Positions 8,281 to 19,020 of a DNA stretch of 64,000 bases are shown in pieces (positions within the stretch are counted from its first letter, which is position 1; each line of letters starts with the position of its first letter). A model generated the notes under the pieces. The model was not told where the DNA came from. It ran no database searches and saw nothing but the letters and a program-made list of their open reading frames with translations. This DNA is from Massilia sp. Root335 (lineage in GTDB: Bacteria; Pseudomonadota; Gammaproteobacteria; Burkholderiales; Burkholderiaceae_D): positions 178,854-242,853 of the forward strand of contig NZ_LMCY01000008.1 of assembly GCF_001425685.1 (NCBI RefSeq). Direction: 5' to 3'. Made by a program: the position numbers and the translations under genes.

Positions 8281-8826
8281 ATGAAACTGCTGAAACAACT
8301 GGCCGTCGTTGCCGCCCTGTCCTCGATCGCTTCGTACGCATCGGCCCTGACCCCGATCGCCGATGCCGATCTGTCCAAGGTGTCCGGCCGTGACGGTGTG
8401 TCGATCGCCGCCGACCTGCATGTGAACATCGGCTCCTTCGTCTACACGGACACCGACACGACCGGCGGCTCGGTGAGCTTCAACAACATCAAGATCAGCG
8501 GTGCGATCGCCGCCACGATCGACATCGTCAACAACGCCACGTTCCAGGGCGAAGTCAGCGCCTACAACGCCGACGGCAGCGTCAATGCCAACACGACCCT
8601 GGGCGTGATCTCGCCGCTGGCCGTACCCGGCGCCAGCGCAGGCCTGGCCGCCTTCCAGCCGACCGGCGACGTCGTCAAGATCGCCATCCCGCAAGTCGAC
8701 ACCGTCAAGAACCTGAGCATGTCGGTCGACTCGATCAAGATGGGCAACTCGACCGCTTCCTACGGTTCGTTCGCCGTCAACGACATCAAGCTGCAAGGCA
8801 CCACCGTCTACATCTGGGCACACTGA
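8281..8826 (+). CDS. Exported DUF6160/FilA-like protein, copy 1
   Basis: The 181-aa protein has a signal peptide (MKLLKQLAVVAALSSIASYASA) and then the family hallmark ALTPIADADLSKVSGRDGVS. The rest is a Ser/Thr/Asn-rich, beta-strand-type sequence without cysteines, ending in an aromatic cap (TTVYIWAH). This resembles DUF6160 proteins, one of which is FilA of the putative Acinetobacter Fil pilus-like system. The molecular role is unknown; export to the periplasm or surface is inferred. The gene is nearly identical to the next one except for a middle segment at about residues 83-110. A GGAGA ribosome binding site precedes the ATG. Confidence 0.8.
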   Translation: MKLLKQLAVVAALSSIASYASALTPIADADLSKVSGRDGVSIAADLHVNIGSFVYTDTDTTGGSVSFNNIKISGAIAATIDIVNNATFQGEVSAYNADGSVNANTTLGVISPLAVPGASAGLAAFQPTGDVVKIAIPQVDTVKNLSMSVDSIKMGNSTASYGSFAVNDIKLQGTTVYIWAH

Positions 8827-9106: not shown

Positions 9107-9616
9107 ATGAAACTGCTGAAACAACTGACCGTCGTCGCTGCCCTGTCCTCGATCGCTTCGTACGCATCGGCCCTGACCCCGATCGCCGATGCCGACCTGT
9201 CCAAGGTCTCGGGCCGTGACGGTGTGTCGATCGCCGCTGACCTGCATGTGAACATCGGTTCCTTCGTCTACACGGATACCGATACCGCAGGTGGTTCGGT
9301 GAGCTTCAACAACATCAAGATCACCGGTGCAATCGCCGCCACCATCGACATCATCAACAACGCCACGTTCCAGACCGAAGCCAGCGCGGCATCGGGCGCA
9401 TCGAGCGTGCTGGGCGTGAGCGGCGGCGCAGGCCTGGCGGCCTTCATGCCGGCTGGCGACGTCGTCAAGATCGCCATCCCGCAAGTCGATACCGTCAAGA
9501 ACCTGAGCATGTCGGTCGACTCGATCAAGATGGGCAACTCGACCGCTTCGTACGGTTCGTTCGCCGCCAACGACATCAAGCTGCAAGGCACCACCGTCTA
9601 CATCTGGGCGCACTAA
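9107..9616 (+). CDS. Exported DUF6160/FilA-like protein, copy 2
   Basis: This 169-aa protein is a tandem paralogue of the preceding gene. The signal peptide, the TPIADADLSKVSGRDGVS hallmark and the final KLQGTTVYIWAH are the same, with only scattered substitutions in the first 80 residues. The central linker is replaced by a short Ala/Ser/Gly-rich segment and is 12 residues shorter. An ACTGGAGA ribosome binding site precedes the ATG, identical to copy 1. A strong terminator follows. The pattern indicates a recent segmental duplication with divergence limited to the variable middle, as expected for a surface-exposed loop (inference). Confidence 0.8.
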   Translation: MKLLKQLTVVAALSSIASYASALTPIADADLSKVSGRDGVSIAADLHVNIGSFVYTDTDTAGGSVSFNNIKITGAIAATIDIINNATFQTEASAASGASSVLGVSGGAGLAAFMPAGDVVKIAIPQVDTVKNLSMSVDSIKMGNSTASYGSFAANDIKLQGTTVYIWAH

Positions 9617-9708: not shown

Positions 9709-10476
9709 ATGCGCACGTTGCTCGCCGCGTCCCTCCTCGCGCTCTCGCTGTTGCCCTGCGCGGCATCGGCCCAGATGCGTCCGATGTCCGACAACGAACT
9801 GTCCCGGGTCAGTGGCCAGGGCCTGTTCACGGTCAGCAATTCCAGCTACAACGGTTTCGATTTCACCCGCATCGCCCTCGATGCCGACGTCACCCTGAAC
9901 GCCAACCTGGCCAATATGCGCCTGGGCGAATACACCTACGCGCCGCGCAACGGCACCGGCGCCGACCTCGACATCAGTGCACTGCAATTCGGCCGCACCG
10001 ACGCCAGCGCCGCCCAGCGGCTCGTGCAGATCACCAATCCCTATTTCGAATTCGTCTACAAGAACACCGGCGTCGACAGCCAGCGCGAGATCGTCGGCAT
10101 GCGCCTCGGCTTCGACGGCATTGCCGGCGACATCGGCACGAAGATCGCCACGCTGTCCGGCTCGATGCGCATCGACGCGGGCGCGGCCGGCATCGTCGAC
10201 AGCATGAACGACGCCGGCGGCGGCAAGCGCTGGGACGGCACCTGCACCGGCTGCACGCCGCTGTCCAGCGTGGGCGGCGTCACGGCAGGCGACGCCAACG
10301 GCCCGAGCCGCGATTTCTGGATCTCGATCCTCAAGACGCCCGTGCAATTCCAGGCCGCGTCCGGCATGCCCGCGCTGACGGAAGCACAGGCCGGCATCTG
10401 GCTGAACTGGCGCGACAAGCTGACCGCGCTGAACCTCACCGGCACCGTGCCGGTCAATAACGCGGCGGGGCATTGA
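9709..10476 (+). CDS. Exported DUF6160-like protein (255 aa)
   Basis: It has a signal peptide (MRTLLAASLLALSLLPCAASA) followed by a DUF6160-type entry motif, MRPMSDNELSRVSGQGLF. The remainder is a repetitive beta-rich sequence with one CTGC pair (about residues 183-186) that could form a disulfide in the periplasm. It is a more distant relative of the two upstream copies. The stop codon overlaps the ATG of the next gene by one base, so this and the next two genes form a tight unit. No function is assigned; a secreted or outer-surface structural role is inferred from the family. Confidence 0.7.
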   Translation: MRTLLAASLLALSLLPCAASAQMRPMSDNELSRVSGQGLFTVSNSSYNGFDFTRIALDADVTLNANLANMRLGEYTYAPRNGTGADLDISALQFGRTDASAAQRLVQITNPYFEFVYKNTGVDSQREIVGMRLGFDGIAGDIGTKIATLSGSMRIDAGAAGIVDSMNDAGGGKRWDGTCTGCTPLSSVGGVTAGDANGPSRDFWISILKTPVQFQAASGMPALTEAQAGIWLNWRDKLTALNLTGTVPVNNAAGH

Positions 10477-11321
10477 TGCTGACGCGCGCCGCGGCCACCG
10501 TCCTGTTCTGCGCGCCGGCGTTCGCGTTCGCACTCGAGCCGCTGCCGGACAGCGCGCTCGCCAGGGTCGCGGGGCGCGACGGCATGAGTTTCAACCTGTC
10601 GAATTTCGCCATGGCGGGCAACGCCGAGCTGCGCTACACCACGCCCGGCGGCGACAGCCTCGGCATCGGCAACCTGGCCGCGTCGCGCTCCGACAACACC
10701 GACGCGCCGTTCGCCGACCCGTACCGCCTCGACGTGGTCCCGGGCGGTCCTGGCCGCGCCGACATGATCAACATCGCCTTCCCGCAAAACACGGCCGGCC
10801 GCGAAGTCTGGCAGATCGCCTACGACTTCGGCATCAACGCCGGCGGCTTCGACGTCAAGAACGGCAGCGTGATCCTGAAGGACCTCGTGTACTACGGCGG
10901 CGGCCTGCAGTGGACGACCCCGGTCGCCGGCGACGGCCTCGCGTTCGGTCTCGCCACGCGCCTCGAACTGGGCAGCCTGACCCTGGCACCGAACGGGCGC
11001 GACGCCACCAGCGAAGCGATGGTGCTGTCCAACGTGAAGATCGGCGCGGCCACGGCGGACGGTTCCGCGCCGACGGCGCCGTGGCAGATCGCGGATGCGA
11101 CGAACCAGGCCGGCATCTTCAACGCACGCACGGATGCGGCGGGCAATGCGAGCCTGCACGTCGGCATCGGCTGGCCCGACGCCGGCCAGGCGGCGCCCAG
11201 CGGCACGCTGCAGATCGGGAACATCAGCTTCCGCAGCGACGCAGGCGCGAGCATGGACCTGGGCAGTTCGCGCATCGGGTCCATCCAGTTGCAGTACCTC
11301 GACGTCAAGTTCCGCCAGTGA
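10476..11321 (+). CDS. Exported DUF6160-like protein (281 aa)
   Basis: I place the start at the ATG at 10476, which overlaps the previous stop (TGATG). An upstream TTG three bases earlier is possible but unnecessary. A signal peptide of about 19 residues is followed by LEPLPDSALARVAGRDGMSF, the DUF6160 hallmark in diverged form. The mature part is rich in Gly, Asp, Asn and alternating hydrophobics with no cysteine, typical of extended beta structures. It ends in LQYLDVKFRQ. It overlaps the following gene by GTGA, so the three genes 9709-11785 are translationally coupled. Confidence 0.7.
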   Translation: MLTRAAATVLFCAPAFAFALEPLPDSALARVAGRDGMSFNLSNFAMAGNAELRYTTPGGDSLGIGNLAASRSDNTDAPFADPYRLDVVPGGPGRADMINIAFPQNTAGREVWQIAYDFGINAGGFDVKNGSVILKDLVYYGGGLQWTTPVAGDGLAFGLATRLELGSLTLAPNGRDATSEAMVLSNVKIGAATADGSAPTAPWQIADATNQAGIFNARTDAAGNASLHVGIGWPDAGQAAPSGTLQIGNISFRSDAGASMDLGSSRIGSIQLQYLDVKFRQ

Positions 11322-11785
11322 GTACGCGCCTGCGCCTCCTCGCCATCCTGGCGCCCGCCTTGCTGTGCCGGGCGGCGTGGGCGGGGCCGCAGCCGCTCGC
11401 CGACGACGAACTGGCCCAGGTGCGCGGCGCCGACGGCATCAGCTTCGCCGTGCGCCTGCAATTGAACCGGCCCGGCGACGGCACCACGAGCGACAGCCGC
11501 CTGACCATCGGCCAGGTGGTCGACGGACGGACGACGTACACGGTGCTGAAGAATGTCGGCGGCGTGATCCAGATGGTGGGCCTGAACATCAGCCCGCAGA
11601 CGGCCGCCGACGGCACGAACTACCTGGCGCTGACCCTGCCGGCGTACACGCGCTTCACGGACACCGGCTTCGAATCGCTCAGCGTGCAGGCCGATCCGCG
11701 CGCGCCCGTGACGCAGAGCCTGGGGCAGGTCACCCTGAACGGCGAACTGCAGATGCAGGGCCAGCTGCGCCTGTGGTCCCATTGA
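11318..11785 (+). CDS. Small exported DUF6160-like protein (155 aa)
   Basis: It begins with GTG overlapping the previous TGA (GTGA). The sequence opens with a signal peptide (VSTRLRLLAILAPALLCRAAWA) and the hallmark GPQPLADDELAQVRGADGISF. A short beta-rich domain follows, ending in LQMQGQLRLWSH; the aromatic-His ending resembles the YIWAH ending of copies 1 and 2. The longer frame that starts upstream at 10910 reads through the preceding gene out of frame and is an artefact. The 3' end overlaps the convergent AraC gene by about 55 bases. Confidence 0.72.
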   Translation: MSTRLRLLAILAPALLCRAAWAGPQPLADDELAQVRGADGISFAVRLQLNRPGDGTTSDSRLTIGQVVDGRTTYTVLKNVGGVIQMVGLNISPQTAADGTNYLALTLPAYTRFTDTGFESLSVQADPRAPVTQSLGQVTLNGELQMQGQLRLWSH

Positions 11786-12887
11786 CGGCGGCCTGGCCAT
11801 GGGCGTTGATGCGGTCCTGCTGGAACTCGCCGGGCGCCTTGCCGAACCAGCGCAGGCAGGCGCGATGGAAGGCGCTGGGGTCGGCGAAGCCCAGCTTGTA
11901 GCTGAGGTTCTTGACGCTGATGCGGTCGCTGCCCAGGTATTGCTGGGCGATCGTGCGCCGCACTTCGTCGACGAGGGTCGAGAAATCGGTGCCTTCGTCG
12001 GCCAGGCGGCGTTGCAGGGTGCGCTCGCTGATCGCGAGGCGCCGTGCGACGGCATCGCGCAGCGCGCCGCCCTGGTCGATCATCGCGGGCAGCAGCTCGC
12101 GCACGCGCGCGGCCACGCTCGTGCGTTCGGCCTGCGCGAGGCGTTCGTCGAGCAGGCGGAACAGGCCTTCCGCCGCGAGCGGGTTCGCGGTGGGAATCGG
12201 CGCCGTGATGTCCGCGCCCCCGAATTCGAGCGCGTTGGCGGGCGCGCCGAAGCGCACCGGGCAGCCGAACCAGCGCGCGTAGGGCGTCGTGTCGACCGGG
12301 GCCGGATAGGCGTATTCGACGAGGGCCGGCTTGAGGTCGGGCCGGCTGCCGACGAAGCGCATCGTCGCCAGCAGCAGGTTCCAGGTGAAGTCGTAGCGCG
12401 CCTGCGGCACCTGGCGCGCGCCGCCGACGAGGTTCAGGCCCACGCGCACCCGGTCCGCTCTCGGCTCGATGGTGGCGCGCACGACGGGCGACACGAGCGG
12501 CATGTAGCGCGTCAGGCTGTCCGCCGCCTGGCGCAGCGTGGGGGAGGCGAGCATCAGGTGGCCCAGTACGCCGAGCCAGCTGAGCGGGTCGGGGGCGAAC
12601 ACGCGAAAGCCGATCAGCGCATCGCCGCTGGCGGCCGCGAGGCCTTCCCAGAGCGTGCTGAATTGGTCGGACAACGCGAGCAGGTCGGCCGCCCGCTCGC
12701 CTTGCGCGCCGTGCTCGAACCATCCGAGGCCGGCCTTGGCGAACAGGGCTTCGACGTCCATGCCCTCGGCGCCGAGGCAGGCCTTGATGCGTTGCACCAC
12801 GTCCGTGGCGGACAGGTACTTCACGCTGGCGACCGCGTACGTGCGGACGCGTCCTGCGCTGGTCTCATGCTTGGTCTCCTTACTCAT
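11730..12887 (-). CDS. AraC family regulator with arabinose-binding-type N-terminal domain
   Basis: The 385-aa transcription factor has an N-terminal domain of the type found in OruR/ArgR-like AraC proteins (residues about 30-220). The C-terminal double helix-turn-helix is visible as ISERTLQRRLADEGTDFSTL and ISVKNLSYKLGFADPSAFHR, followed by RWFGKAPGEFQ. Such proteins usually sense a small molecule and control a neighbouring gene. The neighbours are the DUF6160 unit (convergent, overlapping by 55 bases) and a second AraC gene upstream. No ligand can be inferred. Confidence 0.85.
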   Translation of the reverse strand: MSKETKHETSAGRVRTYAVASVKYLSATDVVQRIKACLGAEGMDVEALFAKAGLGWFEHGAQGERAADLLALSDQFSTLWEGLAAASGDALIGFRVFAPDPLSWLGVLGHLMLASPTLRQAADSLTRYMPLVSPVVRATIEPRADRVRVGLNLVGGARQVPQARYDFTWNLLLATMRFVGSRPDLKPALVEYAYPAPVDTTPYARWFGCPVRFGAPANALEFGGADITAPIPTANPLAAEGLFRLLDERLAQAERTSVAARVRELLPAMIDQGGALRDAVARRLAISERTLQRRLADEGTDFSTLVDEVRRTIAQQYLGSDRISVKNLSYKLGFADPSAFHRACLRWFGKAPGEFQQDRINAHGQAAVNGTTGAAGPASAVRRSG

Positions 12888-13079: not shown

Positions 13080-13931
13080 TCAGGCACGCGCCTGCTGGCG
13101 CGCACGAGCGGGCGTGATGCCGTACGCGGCCGCGAAACAGGCCGTCATATGGCTCTGGCTGTTGAAGCCGCATTGCGCCGCAACACGGGCGATGGAGAAG
13201 CTGGTGCGGGTCAGTAATTCGTGCACCCGTTCGAGGCGTAAACGCAACACATAACGGTGCGGGGTCATGCCCATCGCTTCCTGGAAGATGCGGCGGAAGT
13301 GCGATTCCGACACGCCGGCGCGCTCGGCCAGTTCGGCGTTCGACAGTTCGCTCGACAGATTCTGGCCGATCCATTCCAGCACGCCCTGCAGGCGGCCGAG
13401 CTGGAGGGCGTCCGGCGGCAGGTGCCGGCCCGTCTTGCCTTCCAGTACGCGGCAGGCCTGCTCGACCATCAGCGCCGAGGCGCGCTCGACGAAACCGGCG
13501 TTCGGCGTACTGCTGCGGGCGATTTCCGCCAGCACCTGCTGGGCGGACGCGTGCACGAGCGGGTCGGAAAAGGTGGGCGACTTGGCGCGCGCGGCCAGCA
13601 GGCGCTGCAACTGTCGCACCATGTCGTGGTTCGGATCGAGAAAGTGGAACATGGCCATGTCGATGGCGCCGAAGAACGTCCAGCGGCTGGCGAAGCCGGG
13701 CTGGAACACGGTCGCGGCGCCGGCCAGGAAGTCGAACGAACGGCCCGGGTTGCGCCCGGCTGTTGCGCGCGCGCCACCCATGTGGCAGGCCAGCACCATC
13801 GAATCGAGCGGCGGGACCTCGCATCCGCCCAGCTGGAAGATGTAGCGTTCGGCCCGCAGCGGCACGCCGCCGATCTCGACGCTGATCACCGGCTCCCCCA
13901 ATGCATTGCTGATCCTGTCCCAAGTATGCAC
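13080..13931 (-). CDS. AraC family transcriptional regulator (283 aa)
   Basis: An N-terminal sensor domain of about 170 residues is followed by a C-terminal AraC DNA-binding domain. Its two helix-turn-helices are LSNAELAERAGVSESHFRRI and FSIARVAAQCGFNSQSHMTA, then the family's GITPARAR ending. It is divergent from the peptidase/porin operon starting at 14142, and an inverted repeat lies just upstream of its start. It may therefore autoregulate and control that operon (inference). Confidence 0.87.
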   Translation of the reverse strand: MHTWDRISNALGEPVISVEIGGVPLRAERYIFQLGGCEVPPLDSMVLACHMGGARATAGRNPGRSFDFLAGAATVFQPGFASRWTFFGAIDMAMFHFLDPNHDMVRQLQRLLAARAKSPTFSDPLVHASAQQVLAEIARSSTPNAGFVERASALMVEQACRVLEGKTGRHLPPDALQLGRLQGVLEWIGQNLSSELSNAELAERAGVSESHFRRIFQEAMGMTPHRYVLRLRLERVHELLTRTSFSIARVAAQCGFNSQSHMTACFAAAYGITPARARQQARA

Positions 13932-13982: not shown

Positions 13983-14141
13983 ACATCGGCAAGCCCTGCC
14001 TGCATCCAAAATATAGAAAAACTGCAATAAACGTGGCCAAAACGCCACGTCGACATTGCATGAAATCCAGGCATCCGCACGCCACGCATGCGCACGGAGC
14101 AGGGCCACAAGGGGCTGCATGAAGCGCCCCAGGGAGACACC

Positions 14142-14903
14142 ATGTTCACATTCCTGCTGGGGATCCTCGCGGTCCTCGTGGGCGGGGCCGGCGTGCTTGC
14201 CAAGCACGAGGCGCAGGACCGTCCGCTCGACCGTTTCGACCTGCCGACGACCATGTCCGTGGCCGCCGCCGGCGTGCCGAACGTGGCGATCGAGCCGTTC
14301 TCCGAACTCAAGTTCAAGAACATCGTCCACCAGGCCTACGACTACAGCTGCGGCTCGGCGGCACTCGTCACCATCCTCAAGTACCACCTGGGTCTCGACG
14401 TCACCGAGCAGCAGTCGATGGAAGGCATGATGGCCTTCGGCGAGAAGGACAAGATCATCGAGCGGCGCGGCTTTTCGCTGCTCGACATGAAGCGCTACCT
14501 CGCCTCGATCCACGTCCAGAGCGCGGGCTTCCACGCCGAGATGTCGGACCTGCTCACCCTCGATTCGCCCGGCATCGTGCCGATCGACTACGCCGGCTTC
14601 AAGCACTTCGTCGTGCTGCGCGGCGTGCGCGGCGGTCTCGTGTTCCTGGCCGATCCATCGGCCGGCAACATCACGTTCTCGGTCGAGGAATTCGCCACCC
14701 TGTGGGACCGCAACACGCTGTTCATCGCCTATCCGCCGAAGGGTCATCCGGCCGTCGCCAAGCTGGCGCTGGCCGACAACGAACTGGGCGTGGTCGACAT
14801 GGACCGCATCCGCGACCGCGGCCTGCAGCGACCCATCGACACGCAGTTGGCGAACGAGCGCCTGCTGAACGGTTTCGGCGGGATCTCGATCCGCAAACAA
14901 TAG
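14142..14903 (+). CDS. C39-type peptidase of a Fap/Fil-like export system
   Basis: The 253-aa protein has an N-terminal hydrophobic segment (FTFLLGILAVLVGGAGVLA) and a papain-like C39 fold. Catalytic residues are visible: Cys70 in DYSCGSAALVTILKY, His155 in GFKHFVVLRG and Asp171 in FLADPSAGN. C39 domains cleave after double-Gly leaders in bacteriocin exporters; stand-alone versions occur as FapD in Pseudomonas Fap amyloid operons and in Fil-type operons. Here it is followed by a porin, which matches that setting. The ATG at 14142 is preceded by AGGGAGA; the upstream in-frame start at 14088 has no ribosome binding site. Confidence 0.8.
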   Translation: MFTFLLGILAVLVGGAGVLAKHEAQDRPLDRFDLPTTMSVAAAGVPNVAIEPFSELKFKNIVHQAYDYSCGSAALVTILKYHLGLDVTEQQSMEGMMAFGEKDKIIERRGFSLLDMKRYLASIHVQSAGFHAEMSDLLTLDSPGIVPIDYAGFKHFVVLRGVRGGLVFLADPSAGNITFSVEEFATLWDRNTLFIAYPPKGHPAVAKLALADNELGVVDMDRIRDRGLQRPIDTQLANERLLNGFGGISIRKQ

Positions 14904-14923
14904 ACCCACCACGAAGGACCACC

Positions 14924-15988
14924 ATGAAGATTTCCACGATGCTCGTGCCGGCGCTGGCTTGCGCCGGCCTGTGCGCCCAGTTGCCTGCACTGGCGCAGGA
15001 TACGGCGAGCGCCTCCACGCTGAATGCCGCCACGGCCGGCACGCCGCCCGCCGACGCGCAGCCCGCCTCCGCCGACGCGGTGCGGAATGCGCTGGCGAAG
15101 AAGGAGGGCGATGCCGACAACGCGACGCTGCTGAAGGAAACGCTGACCGCCGTCGACAAGCAGTACTCGCTGATCCGCAAGGGCAAGGTGCAGCTGAACT
15201 ATGAGCTGGGCTACACCTACATCGGCCAGGAAAAGATCAACACCGACCTGTCGTCCGGGACCGCCACGCTGTTCTCGATCGAGAACACGAACTCGCACAC
15301 GATCACCAACACGATCATGGCGGACTACGGCGTGCGCAACAACCTGACGGCGAACGTCACCGTGCCCATGATCAGCCGCTACTCCGATTCCGCCGGCTTC
15401 TCGGGTGTCTCGCACACGATCGGCGACCTGGGCCTGGGCGTGCGCTGGCAGCCGCAGGAAGTCAAGCGCGACGAGGTCGCGTACACGATCACGGCCGGCG
15501 CGCGCCTGGCGACGGGCACGAGTCCGTACAAGGTCGACGTGAACAAGGGCGTGGCCACCGGCTCCGGCGTCAACAGCTTCAACCTCGGCGCCAACATGAC
15601 GCGCATCGTCGATCCGGTCGCGCTGTTCGGCTCCTTCAACGTCGGCTACAGCCTGACGGCCAAGCACCTGAGCCAGCAGCTGTACGGCGCCACGCTGCGC
15701 CAGGTGAAGCCGGGCGCCAGCTTCGGCTTCGGCCTCGGCTTCGCCTACGCGCTGTCGTACAAGATCACGACGTCGTTCTCGTTCCAGGAATCGATCCAGT
15801 CCCGTTCCACGCTCACGTTCGACAACGGCGCCAAGGCGCAGACGCAGACCCAGAGCGCCGGCATCCTGTCGATCGGCGCGGGCTACCGCATGTCGCCCAA
15901 GACCACCGTCAACGTGACGGTCGGCGCCGGCCTCACCGCGGCCGCGCCGAACCTGTCGCTGACCATGAGCCTGCCGTTGTCGCTGTGA
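14924..15988 (+). CDS. FapF-like outer-membrane transporter/porin
   Basis: The 354-aa protein starts at the ATG after GAAGGA. A signal peptide (to about residue 25, ending PALA-QD) is followed by an Ala/Asp-rich helical segment at about residues 30-85. The C-terminal two-thirds is a beta-barrel of alternating strands (VQLNYELGYTYIGQE onward, ending LSLTMSLPLSL). A helical plug plus barrel is the architecture of FapF, which exports Fap amyloid subunits, and of related MetA-pathway barrels. Position directly after the C39 peptidase supports a Fap-like secretion role. The substrate may be the DUF6160 proteins nearby (inference). Confidence 0.65.
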   Translation: MKISTMLVPALACAGLCAQLPALAQDTASASTLNAATAGTPPADAQPASADAVRNALAKKEGDADNATLLKETLTAVDKQYSLIRKGKVQLNYELGYTYIGQEKINTDLSSGTATLFSIENTNSHTITNTIMADYGVRNNLTANVTVPMISRYSDSAGFSGVSHTIGDLGLGVRWQPQEVKRDEVAYTITAGARLATGTSPYKVDVNKGVATGSGVNSFNLGANMTRIVDPVALFGSFNVGYSLTAKHLSQQLYGATLRQVKPGASFGFGLGFAYALSYKITTSFSFQESIQSRSTLTFDNGAKAQTQTQSAGILSIGAGYRMSPKTTVNVTVGAGLTAAAPNLSLTMSLPLSL

Positions 15989-15998
15989 GGCCGACCCC

Positions 15999-17618
15999 AT
16001 GACCGCCGTGCCGTCATCGACCGCTGCGCGCGCGCTGGCCCTCGCCGGGCTGGCCGCCGCGCTCGCGCCGGGCGCGCATGCCGGCGTCACCGACAACCTC
16101 GTCACCAGTCCCACCGCGATGGCGATGGGGAATGCGGTGACGGCCGATCCGCCCGGGATCGAATCGATCCACTTCAACCCGGCCGGCCTCGCGCGCCTGA
16201 CGGGCACGCAGAAGATCGATTCCGTGTTCATGGCGGCGATCCGCAACCCGAACCATTTCGTCTCGGCGCCCGACATCGACATCGGCGGCTTCAAGGACGA
16301 CCCGATCAACGGCAAATCGAGCGGGCCGGTGCGCCAGGCGATGGAGATTCCGTTCTACGGCATCCCCAAGGCGCGCCTGCCGGCCGTGCTGGTGCCGGGC
16401 CTCGGCATGTCGTACAACGCGCCCGGGTCGCGCTGGACCTTCGGCACGATGGTCTACCTGTCCGCGGCGATGAGTATCGACCGCACCAAGGACCCGGATG
16501 ATCCGGCCCGCTTCGACGGCCGCCTGGTCCAGCTGCAGCGGCTCGTGTACCTGTCGCCGGCGGCCGCGTACAAGGTGTCGGACACGCTCAAGATCGGCAT
16601 CTCCGTGCCGATCGCGTATTCCGCCTTCGCCATCAACACGGACTTCCGCGCGCCCAACAAGCTGCTGGGCACCGTCGGCGAGCTGCAGAAGGCCGTCTGC
16701 CCGAACGGTAACGGCACCGTGATCGACACGCTGACCTTCGGCCTGTGCGGCGGCGGTCCGGAAGGCATGGTCAATCCGTTCAAGCGCGCCGCCAACATCG
16801 ACTTCGACCTGCGCGCGTCGTTCGACCCCACGGTCAACGTGGGTGTGCTGTGGGAGCCGAAGAAGTGGTTCGCGCTTGGCCTCGTGTACCAGGGCGGCGC
16901 GCGCACGACCTATACCGGGTCGTACATGTTCCACAGCGACCCGATGCTGCGCAGCTTCGTGCGCGGCCTGAATTCCAGCCTGCTCGGGCCGATCGTCGGC
17001 GCCGTCACCGGCATGCCGCAGGAGATCCCGGAATACCAGTCCGGGAACATGACGGCCAGGATCCCGTTCCCGTGGCGCGTGCAGGCCGGGATGAAGCTGA
17101 TGCTGAGCGATTACGTCCAGCTGAACGCGGACGTCAGCTATGCCGACTGGGCCCAGTGGAACCAGCTGACGTTCGAATTCGACCGCAGCATCAAGCTGCT
17201 CGAGATGGCGCGCCTGTTCGGCTATGCGAATTCGAGCCAGGCCACGTTCAAGATGGGGTTCCGCAGCGTCGTCAACTACAGCTTCGGCACCCAGATCAAC
17301 CTGACCAAGAAGCTCGCGCTGCGCCTGGGCTACGAGCCGCGCAAGAGCTCCATCCCGGGCGACAAGATGAGCCTCCTGGCGCCGCTGCCCGACACGAAAC
17401 TCAGGAGCGTGGGCCTGCGCTACCGCTTCGACGACGGCGGGGAAGTCAACCTGACGGGCAGCTACATGAAGGGCACGTACAACATCCCGGCGCGCAGCGA
17501 CTGCAACCTCAACTGCGACAATTTCTTCAACCTGATTTACAACCCTTATGCGGCCACCAACGTGTCCGGCAGCCTGATCGTGAAGTACGCGGGCGCCTCG
17601 TACACGCGGCCGTTTTGA
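15999..17618 (+). CDS. FadL/OmpP1-family outer membrane protein
   Basis: A signal peptide (ARALALAGLAAALAPGAHA) is followed by the FadL-type N-terminal hatch motif (MAMGNAVTADPPGIESIHFNPAGLARL, quoted in part) and a 14-strand-type barrel. The 539 residues are longer than E. coli FadL (about 420 mature). Two internal Cys pairs are present, one near the C-terminus (CNLNC). FadL proteins import hydrophobic molecules; here the gene sits 10 bases after the FapF-like gene in the same operon, so an envelope-assembly role is equally possible. Confidence 0.75.
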   Translation: MTAVPSSTAARALALAGLAAALAPGAHAGVTDNLVTSPTAMAMGNAVTADPPGIESIHFNPAGLARLTGTQKIDSVFMAAIRNPNHFVSAPDIDIGGFKDDPINGKSSGPVRQAMEIPFYGIPKARLPAVLVPGLGMSYNAPGSRWTFGTMVYLSAAMSIDRTKDPDDPARFDGRLVQLQRLVYLSPAAAYKVSDTLKIGISVPIAYSAFAINTDFRAPNKLLGTVGELQKAVCPNGNGTVIDTLTFGLCGGGPEGMVNPFKRAANIDFDLRASFDPTVNVGVLWEPKKWFALGLVYQGGARTTYTGSYMFHSDPMLRSFVRGLNSSLLGPIVGAVTGMPQEIPEYQSGNMTARIPFPWRVQAGMKLMLSDYVQLNADVSYADWAQWNQLTFEFDRSIKLLEMARLFGYANSSQATFKMGFRSVVNYSFGTQINLTKKLALRLGYEPRKSSIPGDKMSLLAPLPDTKLRSVGLRYRFDDGGEVNLTGSYMKGTYNIPARSDCNLNCDNFFNLIYNPYAATNVSGSLIVKYAGASYTRPF

Positions 17619-17649
17619 ATTCGCTTTGACTTTTCCTGTGGAGACGACG

Positions 17650-18207
17650 ATGTTTCGAAAGATGTGTGTGACGATGGCCTGCGTCGGCATCGGGCTCGGC
17701 CTGGCTGGCGGCGCGAACGCGGAAGGCATGAATGGCGTGCCGGCGTCCAAGCAGGCGCTCGTGCAGCGCGTGCTGGACAAGATGGCGCTGGACGCCGTCG
17801 GCCTGCAGATGCTGCAGACGCCCGTGGCCGACATGCTGCGCCAGTCGCGCGTGGTGGTGCAGAGCCGCGTGCCGGCCGAGAAACAGGATGCGACGATGAA
17901 GGACATCACCGCGGAAGCGACGAAGTTCATCGAGCAGGAAGGGCCGGCCCTGCGCACGAGCACGCACGCGATCGTGCAGTCCAGCGTGGCGCCGCTGCTG
18001 GCGCAGAAGTTCAGCGAGGACGAGTTGAAGCAGCTGGCGGGCATCCTCGAATCGCCCGTGCTGGCCAAGTTCGAGGGCGTCGTGCCGGAGCTGAAGAAAG
18101 CGGTCGGCGAAAACGTCGCCAAGGCGAATGCGGCGCAGATCCAGCCCAAGATGACGGCACTGCAGAACCGCGTCGGCCTCAAGCTGCGCGCGGCCGTCGG
18201 GCAGTAA
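17650..18207 (+). CDS. Exported DUF2059 domain protein
   Basis: I use the ATG at 17650 after GTGGAGACGACG; an earlier in-frame start at 17626 lacks a ribosome binding site and would interrupt the signal peptide. The protein is 185 aa: signal peptide (MFRKMCVTMACVGIGLGLAG..ANA) and an all-helical domain resembling DUF2059, including LAQKFSEDELKQLAGILESP and FEGVVPELKKAV. DUF2059 proteins are periplasmic and of unknown function. It lies in the operon between the FadL-like and MshEN genes. Confidence 0.7.
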   Translation: MFRKMCVTMACVGIGLGLAGGANAEGMNGVPASKQALVQRVLDKMALDAVGLQMLQTPVADMLRQSRVVVQSRVPAEKQDATMKDITAEATKFIEQEGPALRTSTHAIVQSSVAPLLAQKFSEDELKQLAGILESPVLAKFEGVVPELKKAVGENVAKANAAQIQPKMTALQNRVGLKLRAAVGQ

Positions 18208-18231
18208 TGACCACTACCTGAGGAGGCGGGG

Positions 18232-19020
18232 ATGAGCGACTGGACGACACGCAGTACCAACAGGTCCCGGTTGGGCCAGATCCTGATCGAGAAGAAGCTG
18301 ATCTCGCAGGAACAGCTGGACGCGGCAATCCGCGCGCAGGCGCAGAGCGGGCGCCGGCTGGGCGAGATCCTGGCCGACATGAAGCTGATCACGCAGGCGC
18401 AGGTGCGCGGCGCCGTGCGGCGCCAGCGCAGCCTGCGCATGGCGGCGGCACTGGCGACGGCATTGCTCGGGCCCCTGCACGCCTACGCGGCCGTGGCGGC
18501 GGCACCGGCGGCGGGCGTCTCGACGCGCATCGGCGGGGAGCGCGAGGGCGAACGTGAATTCGGGCGCGGCCTGCGTGCGCTGTCCGACGCGGAGCTGGGC
18601 GAGGTGACGGCGCAAGGCCGCGACGACGACGCGCTGCGCGACCAGGCGCGCCAGGCCGAACTGCGCCTGATCGCGCTGGGCGCGCAAGGCGGCCAGCAGG
18701 GCCTGCAGGCCGCCGCGCAGCACGCGCTGCCGAACGACGGCGTGCGCGTGCTGGGCGAACTGGCGACGTTGTTCAATCCGCTCGCGCTGATGCTGTCGGC
18801 CGACACGACGGTGCGCGACGTCAACTACGATCCGGACAACTCGCACGCAACCCTGAACAAGGACGGCTCGGTCACGCTGCGCCTGCCGAGCACGATCGGC
18901 GAGATCAGCTTCCGCAACATCCGCGTGGGCAGCCATCCGGGGCCGACGTTCGGCAGCATCGAGATCCACGATATCGATTTGCGCGGGACGACGATCAGCG
19001 TCAAGCCGATCACGCGCTGA
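18232..19020 (+). CDS. Membrane protein joining a MshEN-type double motif to a DUF6160-like exported part
   Basis: The N-terminus carries two 24-residue motifs separated by exactly five residues: R13-Q36 (starting RLGQILIEKKLI) and R42-Q65 (starting RLGEILADMKLI). This 24-5-24 layout with RLG at the start and Q at the end is that of MshEN c-di-GMP receptor domains, although the conserved Gly at motif position 10 is Lys in both. A basic stretch (RRQRSLR) and a transmembrane helix at about 68-90 follow. The exported part has ALSDAELGEVTAQGRD, like the DUF6160 hallmark, and ends in a beta-rich GSIEIHDIDLRGTTISVKPI. A topology with a cytoplasmic sensor and a periplasmic tail is inferred. It is the last gene of the operon. 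Total 262 aa. Confidence 0.7.
   Translation: MSDWTTRSTNRSRLGQILIEKKLISQEQLDAAIRAQAQSGRRLGEILADMKLITQAQVRGAVRRQRSLRMAAALATALLGPLHAYAAVAAAPAAGVSTRIGGEREGEREFGRGLRALSDAELGEVTAQGRDDDALRDQARQAELRLIALGAQGGQQGLQAAAQHALPNDGVRVLGELATLFNPLALMLSADTTVRDVNYDPDNSHATLNKDGSVTLRLPSTIGEISFRNIRVGSHPGPTFGSIEIHDIDLRGTTISVKPITR

Follow-up and report, generated by a model that had tools for sequence, protein, structure and literature searches.

The window, that is, the whole stretch of 64,000 nucleotides analysed here, carries at 18232-19020 on the plus strand a gene for a 262-aa protein, and we regard it as an evenly balanced question whether this protein is a c-di-GMP-binding preprotein of the PA3740 kind whose bound ligand sets the export of a FilA-like part. 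The open reading frame, which the earlier note had already read there, is borne out by aligned relatives, and we are highly confident of its architecture, namely, an MshEN-type domain, a segment resembling an export signal and the FilA-like part. The domain order and family, the ligand contacts, the signal-peptide-like features, the likeness to FilA, the neighbourhood and the co-occurrence are all supported by sequence. c-di-GMP is a main biofilm signal and acts in the cytosol, whereas fibres form outside. If the export signal of a fibre protein indeed carries such a receptor, the link from cytosol to fibre would be very short, and the uncharacterised PA3740 family would gain a testable role and a tie to the Fil fibre system. 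Neither is the family unknown nor is the domain new; the novelty lies in the tie to Fil, in the reading as a signal peptide and in the occurrence of the same front on other exported proteins.

Domain order of the fusion protein

The gene, preceded 5' of its ATG by a Shine-Dalgarno-like GAGGAGG (18220-18226, plus strand), begins with what sequence comparison supports as an MshEN-type domain at residues 13-65. The 24-5-24 layout described in the earlier note is present, with RLGQILIEKKLISQEQLDAAIRAQ as motif 1 (residues 13-36; 18268-18339, plus strand), a spacer of 5 residues and RLGEILADMKLITQAQVRGAVRRQ as motif 2 (residues 42-65; 18355-18426, plus strand), both of which align with MshE 5htl. 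The NCBIfam model NF053729 matches residues 13-65 with an E value of 1.1e-17 and 63.5 bits (curated cut-off 38), and a sequence search of the PDB gave PilF 6f8l as the best match (E 3.3e-10, whole sequence) and MshE with c-di-GMP, 5htl, at E 6.2e-08. An AF2 model of residues 1-69 (pLDDT 75.6) has 5htl as its top Foldseek match (TMq 0.77, probability 1.00), although nothing in that search reached E < 0.001, the best value being 0.12; AF2 modelling of the whole protein gave a poor result (pLDDT 40). The profile search of the N-terminus proposed in the earlier note thus succeeds with NF053729 and fails with Pfam PF05157 (MshEN), which gives no match to the window protein at E 1 or better. In the MshE-type ATPase of the same genome PF05157 falls on the segment that immediately follows the motif pair, a segment absent from the fusion protein. 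Pfam DUF4388 matches the N-terminal region weakly (22.6 bits, cut-off 25) and exceeds its own cut-off of 25 on the MshEN region of two proteins described below, L112 (28.9 bits) and L156 (30.4 bits); the region is named here after NF053729 and not after DUF4388. A chance motif is ruled out by the NF053729 E value, the 6f8l and 5htl matches and the conservation of the contact columns. Two other NF053729 matches above cut-off are found in the genome, one (G000:C43:45098-45253) within a reading frame of 294 aa and one (G000:C64:2615-2782) within a frame of 1061 aa.

MshE of V. cholerae and NfrB of E. coli contain the same 53-residue 24-5-24 c-di-GMP domain as the fusion. The former is, however, a secretion ATPase and the latter a glycosyltransferase of the inner membrane, and in neither does the domain stand before an export signal. 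Unlike in these two systems, the MshEN_C subdomain is absent from the fusion.

The outer part is, judging from profile comparison, FilA-like at both ends. The profile of the exported part matches a FilA1/FilA2 profile in hhalign (93.9%, 128 columns, E 1.5e-07 with a one-profile database), and the match spans both the FilA hallmark LSDAELGEVTAQG (residues 117-129; 18580-18618, plus strand) and the FilA-like C-terminal signature FGSIEIHDIDLRGTT (residues 240-254; 18949-18993, plus strand). With FilA3 the hhalign match comprises the hallmark only (81.5%), with FilA4 there is none (3.5%), and Pfam PF19657 (DUF6160) does not match the window protein. That model does exceed its cut-off of 27 in four exported proteins encoded nearby on the plus strand, FilA-like protein 1 (8281-8826, 82.8 bits), 2 (9107-9616, 80.2 bits), 3 (9709-10476, 28.1 bits) and 4 (10473-11321, 29.3 bits). 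The fifth exported protein (11323-11785, plus strand) has no Pfam or NCBIfam match. The hallmark said in the earlier note to be common to the fusion and five exported neighbours is present in the fusion and backed by DUF6160 in four of them, but in the fifth it is recognised by eye only. By eye the hallmark presumably also resembles C39 double-glycine leaders, and its being such a leader-like element is offered as an idea; bacteriocin-leader models gave no match to the FilA proteins.

The hydrophobic segment and the ligand site

Q65 is followed by a basic tail and then by a hydrophobic core with a HAYA end, together residues 66-86 (18427-18489, plus strand), which we read as a probable Sec signal peptide. 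The features of such a peptide that are present are the basic end of the n-region, small residues at -3 and -1 and, in 20 of the 42 members only, a short core. A simple signal-peptide rule (lenient and with no null) places the cut after A84, and the alignment suggests A86. R66, R69, A72, P81 and A86 are invariant in the 15 rows of the protein's own family, and the dN/dS of the segment against eight relatives is 0-0.26; A86 is not retained in two other families (f161 and f234), where the presumed cut lies, by eye, one to four residues further on. Tat export was rejected, as the RR pair is RK in many members.

The earlier note had called this segment a membrane helix. A hydrophobic segment is certainly there, and in the window protein alone its sequence is ambiguous between signal peptide and anchor, but for the family a cleavable signal peptide is likelier. 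The uncharged run before a charged residue is 13 residues long in 15 of the 42 members, 18 in five and 22-28 in the other 22, of which the window protein (28) is one. The short cores (13 and 18) are too short for a stable span and fit a signal peptide, so the family favours the latter. Furthermore, seven relatives of 154-237 aa (L078, L079, L081-L085) have the passenger without MshEN, six of them being second copies in fusion-bearing genomes, and at least L082, L083 and L085 bear, by eye, a short signal-peptide-like leader. Taken together, a signal peptide is considered fairly likely over an anchor.

If the segment were instead an uncleaved anchor, the protein would be a bitopic inside-out receptor, in which cytosolic c-di-GMP binding alters the way in which Fil components, for example, the C39 peptidase FilB, are held or let go by the periplasmic FilA-like part. 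The 28 uncharged residues of the window protein are long enough for an anchor, as are by length the 22-28 residues of the whole group of 22 members, and the FilA-like hallmark could mimic a FilB substrate; nevertheless, the short runs in the other members, the invariance of P81 and A86 and the leaders of the MshEN-less relatives make such a receptor unlikely. Its logic would be akin to that of LapD, an inner-membrane c-di-GMP receptor which acts on a periplasmic protease, although Pfam finds no GGDEF or EAL domain in the fusion protein.

The preprotein reading requires that the domain bind its ligand. In MshE each motif contacts c-di-GMP through R1, L2, G3, L17, L21 and Q24, the Gly at motif position 10 makes a helix turn without ligand contact, and the isolated MshEN_N is a c-di-GMP binder (PMC5013675). 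The corresponding residues of the window protein are R13, L14, G15, L29, I33 and Q36 in motif 1 and R42, L43, G44, V58, V62 and Q65 in motif 2, so the R/L/G and L/L/Q pattern is kept with conservative changes at three positions, V58 and V62 replacing Leu in motif 2. In PilF, Ile for Leu at positions 17 and 21 had a 2.4-fold cost. Across the 42 aligned family members, of which the window protein is one, there is no variation in G3 or Q24 of either motif, in L17 of motif 1 or in L2 of motif 2; at R1, motif 2 has Arg in 38 members and Lys in four, and motif 1 (Arg13) has Arg in only 21. When 26 representatives were drawn from the 42 at under 80% identity, six of the 12 contact columns of residues 13-65 were invariant versus one of the other 41 (Fisher p 2.5e-4), and an entropy test of the contact columns versus the rest of the domain gave p 2.8e-4. 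In comparisons with eight relatives the MshEN pair has a dN/dS of 0.08-0.39, which is not always lower than that of the C-terminal part (L051, L060, L114).

As noted earlier, position 10 is Lys in both motifs (K22 and K51), and it was feared that this could alter or abolish binding. The worry is weakened because the Gly10 of MshE is off the ligand, because family members differ at this position (K 22, G 15, R 3 and Q 2 in motif 1; N 15, K 12, G 8, D 3, E 3 and Q 1 in motif 2) and because motif 1 of the MshE-type ATPase from the same genome likewise carries Lys at position 10; loss of binding merely through Lys-10 is thus rejected. The contact residues make it quite probable that the fusion protein binds c-di-GMP. 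In XpsE Gly3 of both motifs and Gln24 of motif 2 are altered (PMC5013675), and an MshEN that no longer binds c-di-GMP and serves as a protein dock only, as proposed for XpsE, would suit the missing Arg1 of motif 1 in half of the members, the Lys at position 10 and, in the window protein, the Leu-to-Val replacements of motif 2. Unlike in XpsE, however, Gly3 and Gln24 of both motifs are kept throughout the 42, and the dN/dS values of the pair and the c-di-GMP binding reported for the relative PA3740 also render a mere dock improbable. Two products, with a second translation start at Met70 giving a sensor-less exported FilA-like protein, are very improbable, for although Met70 heads the hydrophobic core in the window protein it is found in just 21 of the 42 members, the window protein included, and a conserved internal start there was rejected.

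The Fil-like operon, the wider family and PA3740

From its position the fusion gene is the last gene of a putative FilB-FilC-FilD-like operon. This comprises, all on the plus strand, genes for a FilB-like C39 peptidase (14136-14903; NF050078 218.5 bits, PF03412 66.1 bits), a FilC-like (FapF-related) outer-membrane protein (14921-15988; NF050079 247.8 bits, NF058560 65.4 bits), a FilD-like OmpP1/FadL protein (15999-17618; NF050080 407.7 bits) and a small protein with a weak DUF2059 match (17626-18207; PF09832 20.2 bits, cut-off 23.6), and a gap of 24 bases separates the last of these from the fusion. The Acinetobacter Fil (FilA-FilD) and Pseudomonas Fap systems likewise have DUF6160/FilA, a C39 peptidase, a FapF-related channel and a FadL-like protein in one cluster, but all the Fil scores here are below the curated cut-offs (475, 630 and 970 for FilB, FilC and FilD), each being nonetheless the best match. 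None of the Fil or Fap models matched by the neighbouring proteins matches the fusion protein. Two genes which look by eye like AraC-type regulators (11730-12887 and 13080-13931) lie on the minus strand between the filA-like genes and filB, and in several loci a relative of the former is found between filBCD and the fusion. Elsewhere the window's genome encodes another C39 peptidase, again of the FilB/FapD kind (G000:C37:135324-135779, 125.5 bits), perhaps as part of a separate Fap-like system.

The fusion is kept in nine named Massilia and Telluria genomes (250-264 aa, 72-92% identity over the best segment), and a search of plasmid records gave no match. FilB, FilC and FilD are encoded near it in 22 of 30 fusion loci, in stretches of up to 20 kb, L061 having them on the opposite strand and L071 several kb away; in the other eight loci the fusion is not beside filBCD. 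Across the genomes of the family the fusion tracks FilB: with at most 10 candidates scored per genome it was found in 20 of 245 genomes, a strong FilB (214 bits or more, the next score being 141) was found in 23, and 18 of these 23 have the fusion versus two of the 222 others (Fisher p 7e-21, with genomes counted singly and relatedness ignored). One of these two, G021, is 86% complete and has a 3.6-kb contig with FilA-like genes. The other, G139, has neither strong FilB nor DUF6160, and its fusion (L062, 8996-9823) adjoins bipA with no fil genes beside it; the MshEN motifs are kept, QG of the hallmark and GTT at the terminus are gone, and the gene looks as if it were an orphan after loss of the cluster. 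Decay of its passenger is not supported by dN/dS, as L059, with fil genes adjacent, has similar ratios, but only by the lost signature residues. Of the five FilB genomes in which no intact fusion is found, G141, G173 and G184 carry copies that are partial or devoid of MshEN, and G058 and G210 carry no copy. In a class sample of 185 genomes, FilB is found in four and the FilA-like fusion in only two of these (G000 and G251); G382 has another MshEN-signal-peptide protein (L112) and G254 only ATPase-size frames.

Four genomes from a further family of the order (f207) also carry the same fusion, as do f161, f234 and f9 within the class, and in the loci of these four families that were examined it stands apart from fil genes. 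The survey of homologues called for in the earlier note thus finds the fusion beyond the protein's own family, beside filBCD in most of the 30 loci but not in the loci examined among these relatives. A strong FilB is nevertheless encoded elsewhere in 11 of the 12 more distant fusion genomes, one such frame (in G1083) having an internal stop, and is missing from the fragmented G717; DUF6160 is found in all 12. Of the direct link from c-di-GMP to an envelope system proposed in the earlier note, the MshEN identity and the association with the Fil fibre system are supported at the level of sequence.

PA3740 of P. aeruginosa has been reported by peptide array to bind c-di-GMP (Duvel et al. 2016, as described in citing papers) and is cited as an MshEN swarming protein whose remainder is uncharacterised (PMC5013675). 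The published PA3740 peptide agrees at 11 of 12 positions with L151 of f161, at 10 with L148, at nine with L150 and L152 and at eight with L154; the best of 32 control loci reaches five, and the window protein four, elsewhere in the chain, so that it is tied to the PA3740-like members solely through the 42-member alignment. The L150 gene has as neighbours SRP54, tRNA m1G methyltransferase, Na/H exchanger, integrase-family and DsbC-like genes. This order we take to be that around PA3740 in PAO1. From the peptide match and this gene order, PA3740 appears to belong to the fusion family. The gene of the PA3740-like members stands alone with FilB elsewhere, whereas the window fusion is at the end of a fil operon. 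The literature passages on PA3740 covered by the analysis do not present it as a FilA-like or signal-peptide fusion; in one study, of P. aeruginosa fleS and fleR mutants with raised c-di-GMP, which labels PA3740 a PilZ protein, its deletion did not reduce biofilm.

Proposed c-di-GMP-dependent export and other exported proteins

On the most parsimonious view, c-di-GMP might act on the Fil system as follows. Residues 13-65 would form a cytosolic MshEN_N four-helix domain, residues 66-86 a Sec signal peptide and residues 87-262 the exported FilA-like part. c-di-GMP on the cytosolic domain of the preprotein would permit or prevent entry of the signal sequence into Sec, or set its speed; after cleavage by signal peptidase the FilA-like part would act in the periplasm or the fibre as a minor subunit, an initiator or a partner of FilB, and c-di-GMP would thereby gate fibre biogenesis through the export of one component. 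From the features above we infer binding by the window protein, cleavage, gating together with its sign, and the role of the released part, and the gating by c-di-GMP is put forward tentatively. A shortened MshEN_N domain of PilF is loose without ligand and folded with ligand, and in the low-confidence full-length AF2 model of the window protein helix 4 continues into the hydrophobic core (residues 55-89), so ligand-driven folding could make the signal sequence more or less accessible to the export machinery. On either view, export of a preprotein or its chief rival, the LapD-like uncleaved receptor, c-di-GMP would be expected to act on the Fil system via the fusion protein.

A c-di-GMP-operated signal peptide could also be a general device, with MshEN as an oversized n-region through which c-di-GMP would determine post-translationally whether a key component of a surface-fibre system leaves the cytosol, and which recurs on unrelated passengers, namely, FilA-like proteins in Fil genomes, proteins beside two types of chaperone-usher system and a serine hydrolase; we consider this possible but somewhat doubtful. 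Among the matches listed from the open-access literature, no MshEN fusion to FilA-like or pilus-linked exported proteins was found, and PMC9275015 is the sole one among them with both MshEN and chaperone-usher. Besides PMC5013675, the literature covered comprises PMC12002112, PMC8669469, PMC5557850, PMC11784438, PMC3498257, PMC12943098, PMC9765702, PMC8335546, PMC7122816, PMC3174259 and PMC8789108. The A2 searches covered 321 genomes of the class and 250 of the order, and the MshEN-plus-core models 369 genomes of the class (A4) and 329 of the phylum (A5); some of the recurring proteins had themselves been used to build the later models, which fixes their scores in those searches by construction. 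The signal peptides of L110-L113 and L156-L158 were judged by eye.

L112 (5322-6131), with an MshEN-type pair ahead of a signal-peptide-like core, shares its strand with genes for a TcfC/CooC-type usher and a PapD chaperone. L113 (9025-10005, facing the cluster) and L156 (9867-11045, on the same strand) are neighbours of a chaperone, an usher and two SCPU subunits, and both have more than one MshEN-type pair before a signal-peptide-like core. L110 (9267-9833), which has no Pfam match above cut-off, and L111 (9290-9847) consist of an MshEN pair, a signal-peptide-like core and a short passenger. Moreover, L157 (9182-10786) and L158 (8675-10054) have MshEN-type repeats and a signal-peptide-like core followed by a serine hydrolase of the Beta-lactamase2 type.
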